64,000 bases of DNA, taken from contig NZ_LMPD01000002.1 of NCBI RefSeq assembly GCF_001424305.1, positions 626,280 to 690,279 on the forward strand, read 5' to 3'. Source of the stretch: Pedobacter sp. Leaf176. Lineage in GTDB: Bacteria; Bacteroidota; Bacteroidia; Sphingobacteriales; Sphingobacteriaceae. Shown here piece by piece: positions 17,947 to 19,773 of this stretch. The position numbers and the translations under genes were made by a program. The notes under the pieces are model-generated. The model did not search any database. It saw only the letters and a program-made list of their open reading frames with translations, and was not told the DNA's origin. Every line of letters begins with the position of its first letter. Positions within the stretch are counted from its first letter, which is position 1.

Positions 17947-18405
17947 TTATGCCCTTGCCATGCTTGCAGCAAAAAGCAAGACAAAAAGGAAGTAACAAAT
18001 CATGATTACGATGGTAAATATGCCCCAAAATTTAAACAAAGATTTCATGTTCATCATTGCATCGTCTAAGCTTTCCTGATCCCCATACAACACGCCTCGT
18101 TTACCCTTGTTCGAAAACCTGAACAACAATAAACTTGGATAAAAATACATCAAAGCTAAAACGAGGTAAACGATGGTTACTCCAATAGCGCCTGCGCCTG
18201 CTAGCGGGCCTAACTGTGCAACCATAGCCGGATTTGCTGTTAAAGCCGCCCCTATGCCGAAAGATCCGATAATTAGAAAAGCAGATAAAATAAATCCAAT
18301 TATTGATAAGAACCTTGCCCATTTAGAAATCTCATAAATGTAACTTCTCATCTCTTCGGTAACGATTAGTTTTACTTCCTGGGGTGTTTGTTCTAAGTCT
18401 TCCAT
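17947..18405 (-). CDS. Small membrane protein, DUF5362-like
   Basis: 152-aa protein with about four transmembrane segments in two pairs (about 35-60, 70-95, 100-112 and 130-148). The N-terminal soluble part runs EEMRSYIYEISKWARFLSIIGF, which I associate with DUF5362 membrane proteins of Bacteroidota. No catalytic motif is seen. It ends one base after the convergent beta-lactamase-like gene, with no room for a terminator between them. Confidence 0.65.
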   Translation of the reverse strand: MEDLEQTPQEVKLIVTEEMRSYIYEISKWARFLSIIGFILSAFLIIGSFGIGAALTANPAMVAQLGPLAGAGAIGVTIVYLVLALMYFYPSLLLFRFSNKGKRGVLYGDQESLDDAMMNMKSLFKFWGIFTIVIMICYFLFVLLFAASMARA

Positions 18406-18490: not shown

Positions 18491-18498
18491 TATCTTTG
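18491..18498 (+). promoter_or_regulatory. -7 promoter element for ychF, directly before the heptad repeat
   Basis: TATCTTTG matches TAnnTTTG. The tandem repeat starts 3 bp later, so the transcription start would fall inside the first repeat copies, and nearly all of the ychF leader would be repeat. Confidence 0.55.
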
Positions 18499-18500
18499 CC

Positions 18501-18594
18501 AAAGGTGAAAGGTGAAAGGTGAAAGGTGAAAGGTGAAAGGTGAAAGGTGAAAGGTGAAAGGTGAAAGGTGAAAGGTGAAAGGTGAAAGGTGAAA
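18501..18594 (+). repeat. Tandem heptanucleotide repeat (AAAGGTG, about 13.4 copies)
   Basis: 94 bp of perfect head-to-tail AAAGGTG units lie between a -7 promoter element and the ychF ATG (18619). Since 7 is not a multiple of 3, the repeat reads through as an open frame with a 7-residue period on the minus strand, which produced the spurious ORF 18482-18670. The unit resembles a purine-rich Shine-Dalgarno sequence. Copy number is likely to vary by slippage. Confidence 0.97.
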
Positions 18595-18618
18595 TCGTAA
18601 ATCGAAATTTAAATATAA

Positions 18619-19719
18619 ATGGCATTACAATGTGGTATTGTTGGTTTACCAAATGTTGGAAAATCAACACTTTTTAACTGTTTATCGAATGCAAAGGCGC
18701 AGGCGGCAAACTTTCCTTTCTGTACAATTGAGCCTAATGTTGGTGTAATCACCGTGCCGGACGATAGGTTAACAAAACTTGCCGAATTGGTTAAGCCTAA
18801 TAAGGTTCAGCCGAACACAATCGAGATTGTCGATATCGCGGGATTAGTAAAAGGTGCATCAAAGGGTGAAGGATTAGGCAACCAGTTTTTAGGAAACATT
18901 CGTGCAACAAATGCTATAATCCACGTTTTGCGTTGCTTTGACGATGGAAATGTAATCCATGTTGATGGTTCTGTCGACCCGATTCGTGACAGGGAAATTA
19001 TAGACACCGAATTACAGCTTAAAGATTTGGATACAGTTGACAAACGCATCCAGAAAGTCGAAAAAATGGCTAAAACCGGTGGTGATAAAGATGCCAAACG
19101 TACTTATGAAATTTTGACCGTCGTAAAATCCCATTTAGAAAGCGGAAAATCTATTCGCACCGCGCCTTTAACCCAGGAAGATTTTGATTTTATTGAAGAT
19201 TTAGGATTGCTTACCCAAAAACCGGTAATGTATGTTTGTAATGTTGATGAGGCATCAGTAATTTCTGGAAATAAATATGTTGACTTAGTGAAAGCTAATG
19301 TTGCTGATGAAAATGCTGAGGTATTAGTCATTTCAGCGAAAATTGAATCAGAGATTGCAGAACTGGACAGTTATGAAGAGCGCCAAGAGTTTTTAGCTGA
19401 TTTAGGTTTAACAGAATCCGGAGTTAATAAATTAATTCGTGCAGCTTATAAATTATTAAATCTTTACACATACTTTACTGCTGGTGTTCAGGAAGTTAGA
19501 GCATGGACAATTACAAAAGGCTTTACTGCCCCACAAGCTGCTGGTGTAATCCACACTGATTTCGAAAAAGGATTTATTCGTGCTGAAGTTATTAAATACA
19601 ACGACTTTGTGTCACTGGGTTCAGAAAATGCCTGTAAGGATGCTGGTAAATTAGGCGTTGAAGGAAAAACTTATGTTGTTGAAGATGGCGACATTATGCA
19701 TTTCAGATTTAATGTGTAA
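18619..19719 (+). CDS. ychF: Redox-regulated ATPase / ribosome-associated YchF (OLA1 family)
   Basis: Universally conserved P-loop protein of the Obg-related family that prefers ATP over GTP, 366 aa. The G1 motif is GLPNVGKST (residues 8-16), G3 [16 protein letters not shown], and the altered G4 (NVDE in place of NKxD) is visible in [12 protein letters not shown]. The TGS-type C-terminal domain ([12 protein letters not shown] and [12 protein letters not shown]) ends with the typical [14 protein letters not shown]-like tail. It is involved in translation and stress responses. It is the only gene whose leader consists of a tandem repeat in this window. Confidence 0.97.
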
Positions 19720-19745
19720 ACGCTGTAAAGAGGCTTAAGAATATG

Positions 19746-19773
19746 AAAGCTACCAGAAATGGTGGCTTTTTTT
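19746..19773 (+). terminator. Rho-independent terminator after ychF
   Basis: A 10-bp stem AAAGCTACCA / TGGTGGCTTT (one wobble) with a GAAA tetraloop, followed by T. It lies 26 bp past the ychF stop codon. Confidence 0.88.

Follow-up and report, generated by a model that had tools for sequence, protein, structure and literature searches.

Heptanucleotide repeats in prokaryotes

Among long simple repeats, the heptanucleotide class is the most abundant in most of the genomes examined, and polymerase slippage has been proposed as its cause (both points from Mrazek et al. 2007, as cited in PMC4679880). In Xanthomonas species, GGGAATC heptads lie at common sites where their length and sequence vary (PMC4692102). 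TAACTGA heptads have been described before start codons in Beggiatoaceae, in Cyanobacteria and in a few Bacteroidetes (MacGregor 2015, PMC4679880). The array described here consists of AAAGGTG heptads and lies in the 5' leader of ychF in Pedobacter sp. Leaf176. It has the attributes of a prokaryotic heptanucleotide repeat: it is longer than expected by chance, period 7 recurs through the genome at mainly intergenic places, and relatives differ by whole units. “Window” denotes the whole 64,000-nucleotide stretch of DNA that was analyzed, and coordinates refer to it unless otherwise stated.

Layout of the ychF locus

Tandem repeats were located with TRF, which reported a single array in the window, at 18501-18594 on the forward strand (AAAGGTG, period 7, 13.4 copies, 100% matches, score 188). 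The first-pass annotation, which had counted about 13.4 perfect copies before ychF, is therefore borne out, and the array is far beyond chance. Upstream of it lies the -7 element of the ychF promoter, TATCTTTG (18491-18498, forward strand), recognized from the sequence. We take TAnnTTTG to be the consensus of the Bacteroidota -7 element, used by the primary sigma factor, and TATCTTTG was assigned to this type, which lies outside the coverage of the sigma-70-type promoter scan. The -7 element is followed by CC, the array, a 24-nt start-proximal spacer (18595-18618) and the ATG at 18619. The array thus ends 24 nt before the ATG, as annotated earlier; its start had been placed 3 bp after the -7 element, where in fact two nucleotides intervene and the array begins at the third base. 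Since it is located between promoter and ATG, the array would be transcribed, as had also been proposed.

The leader, counted from the first base after the -7 element up to the ATG, spans 120 nt (18499-18618, forward strand). A second, decayed heptad, AAATCGT, adjoins the 3' end of the AAAGGTG array (18592-18605, forward strand; two copies, the last with one mismatch) and was recognized from the sequence and by leader comparison; relatives carry 2.4 to 6.7 copies of it. The spacer is AT-rich and contains no Shine-Dalgarno (SD) sequence.

The gene itself (18619-19719, forward strand) encodes the redox-regulated ATPase YchF (366 aa), whose product scores 503 bits against the equivalog model TIGR00092 of NCBIfam (cut-off 279). 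It is 99% identical to YchF of P. rhodius and P. jeongneungensis, and the genome groups with Pedobacter. To its left is a divergent ORF for a small, membrane-protein-like product of 152 aa (17947-18405, reverse strand), which gave no match in an NCBIfam search and has no array in its own leader. A short way 3' of ychF, at 19743-19772, a hairpin followed by T residues, AAAGCTACCAGAAATGGTGGCTTTTTTT, resembles an intrinsic terminator, and it was not among the matches of the consensus scan. Because of this terminator-like hairpin, ychF is probably monocistronic.

ychF leaders of relatives

Leaders of ychF were gathered from named genomes and from genomes of the same genus. Those with YchF identity of at least about 92% were treated as the close clade (65 leaders), and an array was scored where three or more perfect heptads were present. 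By this measure 36 of the 65 leaders carry an array in the same slot and 29 do not, so that an array unique to this genome could be dismissed. The earlier remark that a repeat is surprising in the leader of a housekeeping gene still holds, with the addition that it is recurrent. TA[TCG]CTTTG was found upstream of ychF in 64 of the 65; in L142, the one leader without it, the locus is cut off within the array. The distance from -7 element to array start is 9-11 nt in most leaders (range 2-21), apart from one with an offset of 42 nt, in which a second unit type is the longer. Because about 9-11 nt separate -7 element and array in nearly all relatives, the transcription start inside the repeat that had been suggested would be peculiar to this genome. 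Clade arrays have 4.4-18.1 copies and end 24-187 nt before the ATG. An assembly artefact or contamination is hardly credible: short reads can mis-size long perfect arrays, but arrays stand at this site in 36 separately assembled genomes, including one-contig assemblies (G093, G124), and their flanks are homologous between genomes.

Eleven unit words occur at the site, so the idea of one conserved word was abandoned. They are AAAGGTG (10 leaders), AAGGCGG (8), AAAGCGG (5), AGATGTG (4), AAGGTGG and AAGTGAG (2 each), and ACGATGG, AAAGACT, AGAGCGG, AAAGTGG and AAATGGG (1 each). All 11 have at least five purines in seven positions on the mRNA strand; since the leaders have a common ancestry, the words cannot be counted as independent draws. 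Replication-strand skew was rejected as the source of this purine bias, because the ychF sense strand has a GC skew of about zero or weakly below it, the reverse of what G-rich arrays would need. A chain of single substitutions linking the words was rejected as well (8 of 11 have a one-step neighbor; p=0.19 against random purine-rich words).

These words also bear on whether the heptads might be binding sites for a nucleic-acid-binding regulator of the S1, Csp or Csr type, by analogy with the proposal made for TAACTGA in Beggiatoaceae. Tandem heptads before a translation-related gene do resemble that case (PMC4679880), and some units recur at different loci of different genomes, such as AAAGTGG at C1:736264 of the present genome and in the ychF leader of L169. 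With eleven different units at one site, however, there is no conserved word to bind, and the units are not significantly closer to each other than random purine-rich words are (p=0.19). Such a regulator would be quite improbable.

Leaders lacking a perfect array often show a single heptad or a pair of them, or decayed heptads, in this slot. Among more distant genus members a compact leader of 24-26 nt was found in 39 of 49, and no array was present in any leader read; in 72 other Bacteroidota, upstream regions of ychF yielded a three-copy heptad array in none. In several leaders of the group L133, L135, L138, L140-L144, L154 and L161, and in some of Mucilaginibacter (L022, L023), an inverted repeat of the form GGCTATTG...CAATAGCC closely precedes the start region, within the last 60 nt before the ATG; it is possibly a second leader element.

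Turnover of copy number and unit

Changes were counted on the ychF tree, which implies no fewer than 20 changes in array presence or absence and no fewer than 27-28 changes of unit. The collections hold one genome per species, and copy numbers were therefore compared at the species level. Sister species L149 and L150, whose ychF genes are 3.9% apart, have near-identical leaders that differ by exactly 35 bp; the pairs L158/L144 and L160/L162 differ by exactly 21 bp and 14 bp, respectively, their leaders being otherwise near-identical. These whole 7-bp steps agree with the earlier expectation that slippage alters leader length, and they directly support whole-unit slippage or unequal exchange at the species level. 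Some arrays are mixed, with GGTGGAA x5 followed by GGCGGAA x5 in L137 and a passage from AGCGGAA through AGCCGAA to AGACGAA in L153, as is expected if point mutation is followed by re-expansion.

Leader types (CCGCCTGAAA..., CCCGATTTT... and CGCGGAATTT...) are interspersed on the ychF tree, which shows 12 changes under an assignment that was crude for some classes, for example in L168 versus L167 and L098, in L165 versus L152, and in L175/L176 versus L172/L174. This hints at an exchange of leader segments between species.

An alternative to simple slippage is that the number of copies determines how long the leader is, what properties the promoter-proximal RNA has or how stable the mRNA is, and in this way would tune or phase-vary the dose of YchF, selection keeping the array while the unit sequence drifts. 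It would account for the recurrence at one leader with an anchor 9-11 nt after the -7 element, for the purine bias in 36 of 36 arrays, and for sister species that differ by whole units; a 5'UTR precedent exists in the AGAT copies upstream of uspA2 of Moraxella catarrhalis, as cited in PMC4679880. However, 29 of the 65 close relatives do without a perfect three-copy array, and the tree requires at least 20 gains or losses. Predicted pairing of the start region does not change (see below), the array, being located outside the reading frame as well as the promoter spacer, cannot switch frame or promoter spacing, and ychF is neither a surface nor a contingency gene. Tuning of this kind is conceivable but doubtful. 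A more far-reaching form would make the leader a tuning element that is under selection and renews itself: whichever purine-rich heptad array is present would do, length would set the dose of a translation-linked ATPase, and lineages would swap the word while keeping position, period and strand bias. This form we consider rather unlikely.

Heptad arrays elsewhere in the genome

An 864-kb sample of the genome (18%) was searched for perfect tandem arrays, nearly all of which had period 7 or one of its multiples. As a control, the same tandem threshold was applied to five first-order Markov re-samplings of the 864 kb, which gave two tandem matches of any kind and none of period 7. A lag spectrum of the sample was also computed with 35-bp windows (at least 80% lag identity, lags 4 to 28). 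Six segments were obtained at lag 7, eight at lag 14, twelve at lag 21 and five at lag 28; of all other lags only 11 and 27 were occupied, by one segment each. It follows from this dominance of period 7 that this genome is generally prone to heptad arrays. Many are also present in distant relatives within the class (G154).

The ychF array is the longest perfect array of the sample. Others, among them TGGAAAG x8.9, GGTAATC x6.9 and TTAGCGG x4.6, are intergenic or at gene ends, some arrays lying directly 3' of stop codons; by inspection their strand orientation is mixed. Of five period-7 TRF arrays, four are intergenic and one covers the 3' end of a called ORF. Repeats at multiples of 7 fall inside called ORFs in 17 of 33 cases, mostly two-copy matches and partly artefacts of ORF calling. 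At L265:3710-4178 the same genome has a unit of 21 nt (AGTTCTATACTTGCAGTTAAT), a multiple of seven, which is repeated about 22 times over 470 bp. The 14-nt double heptad AAAGCGG+AAAGACT occurs both at L250:3397-3537 (C1 of this genome) and in the ychF leader of L165, which are unrelated loci; the vocabulary of heptads seems limited and common to different loci.

The surroundings of ychF in 21 genomes, 455 kb in all, contain 11 perfect period-7 arrays, and 10 of these sit in the ychF leader. Unit words were also searched as patterns in 147 whole genomes, where AAAGGTG arrays were at ychF in 10 of 12 places, GGCGGAA arrays in 8 of 10 and AAAGCGG arrays in 5 of 7 (23 of 29 combined). These fractions overstate the enrichment, because the searched words were picked for occurring at ychF. 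Arrays of a fourth word, GATGTGA, occur widely at other places; 36 genomes have them, and the matches listed include four ychF sites.

Arrays of GATGTGA or AAAGGTG also share a site between species 3' of a recQ-like helicase ORF (L285 and L100) and 3' of a gcvT-like ORF (L287 and L289), close to a stop codon or immediately after it. The ychF leader is therefore not the sole recurrent heptad site.

RNA structure and translation

In the window, the array RNA folded no better than shuffled sequences (z-score +1.0), and an Rfam search of the ychF leader gave no match even at E up to 1. Predicted pairing between positions -20 and +20 averaged 0.399 in leaders with an array and 0.399 in those without one. 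RNA structure was accordingly discarded as an explanation.

The first-pass annotation had described the array as SD-like purine units, which on this reading would pair with 16S rRNA and raise ychF translation as a ribosome landing site. The units are indeed purine-rich, and by inspection AAAGG/GGTGA resembles parts of the SD complement. Against this, the ribosomes of Bacteroidia do without SD pairing, the anti-SD in the 16S tail being sequestered (PMC9976891). Initiation in F. johnsoniae is tuned by A at -3, -6, -12 and -13, and by secondary structure, and Bacteroidia use A-rich, Kozak-like positions (PMC6847099). Arrays end 24-187 nt before the ATG, and units such as ACTAAAG and GATGTGA have no SD core. 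In the present leader, no anti-SD-complementary word was found 5-10 nt before the start codon, where the spacer is AT-rich. Because these ribosomes do not read SD sequences and pairing of the start region is unchanged, SD mimicry is very improbable, and the claim was dropped on literature and array position.

Origin of the array

The ychF array is probably an evolving slippage hotspot of the known heptanucleotide kind, situated in a tolerant part of the leader. A heptanucleotide microsatellite would fill the tolerant middle of the leader. Seeds of one or two heptads would grow and shrink by whole 7-bp steps, through strand slippage or unequal exchange, and mutated units would become re-homogenized. 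The slot between transcript start and start-proximal spacer would thus be refilled repeatedly with new units while promoter and start region stay fixed. We infer that slippage is the molecular cause and that the array has no strong effect on ychF expression. The hotspot explanation is favored by the non-ychF heptad arrays, which also lie in slack DNA, several of them directly after stop codons. What stands against it is that pure neutrality does not predict a concentration of arrays at one leader. The most likely reason for the purine bias and the frequent targeting of ychF is a mild constraint on the leader RNA, such as few pyrimidines and little structure. Leader length may matter, because array-less relatives keep a tightly constrained leader of 24-26 nt. 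Since purine bias, anchoring near the transcription start and concentration at ychF are left unexplained by neutrality alone, a low probability is kept for a weakly constrained leader RNA or for true tuning of ychF by copy number. As a whole, the array points to DNA that re-expands through copying slips rather than to a proven genetic switch.

Dozens of species form a natural series in which one 5' leader gains, loses, lengthens and re-words its repeat while promoter and gene remain constant. With this series two questions become testable: the reason why simple repeats of bacteria favor 7 bp, and a possible tuning of housekeeping genes by microsatellites in their leaders. Even if it is neutral, the locus would allow the slippage of heptads to be measured cleanly in Bacteroidota, and it warns against taking arrays of this sort for ribosome-binding or switch elements.

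Comparison with known repeats

The TAACTGA network resembles the ychF case in that heptads lie upstream of start codons, including those of essential translation genes, and differ by 7-nt increments between close strains (PMC4679880). TAACTGA, however, is one conserved word placed mostly within several nucleotides of the start codon, whereas ychF arrays use many words, are anchored to the promoter and end well upstream of the ATG, none at the TAACTGA-type distance; neither TAACTGA nor a rotation of it is among the 11 units, the unit of this genome being AAAGGTG. The 5'UTR repeats of M. catarrhalis uspA1 and uspA2, which control phase variation and are cited in PMC4679880, similarly lie between promoter and start codon with variable copy number. 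Those genes encode surface proteins with measured expression effects, whereas ychF is a housekeeping gene.

Like the prokaryotic heptanucleotide repeats of Mrazek and the GGGAATC type of Xanthomonas and Nostoc (PMC4692102), the ychF arrays are perfect, intergenic, genome-wide and variable, at sites that are partly common. They differ from GGGAATC-type repeats in lacking G-runs long enough for a G-quadruplex explanation. A literature search, with most subscription papers outside its scope, found no report of such word turnover. The ychF array is a member of the general heptanucleotide-repeat kind. It differs from the general case in that one 5' leader is a very frequent home of arrays across a clade and that this slot holds 11 unit types, the word differing between species; the apparent novelty is how extensively words have turned over at a single slot, anchored to the promoter, in the leader of a housekeeping gene.
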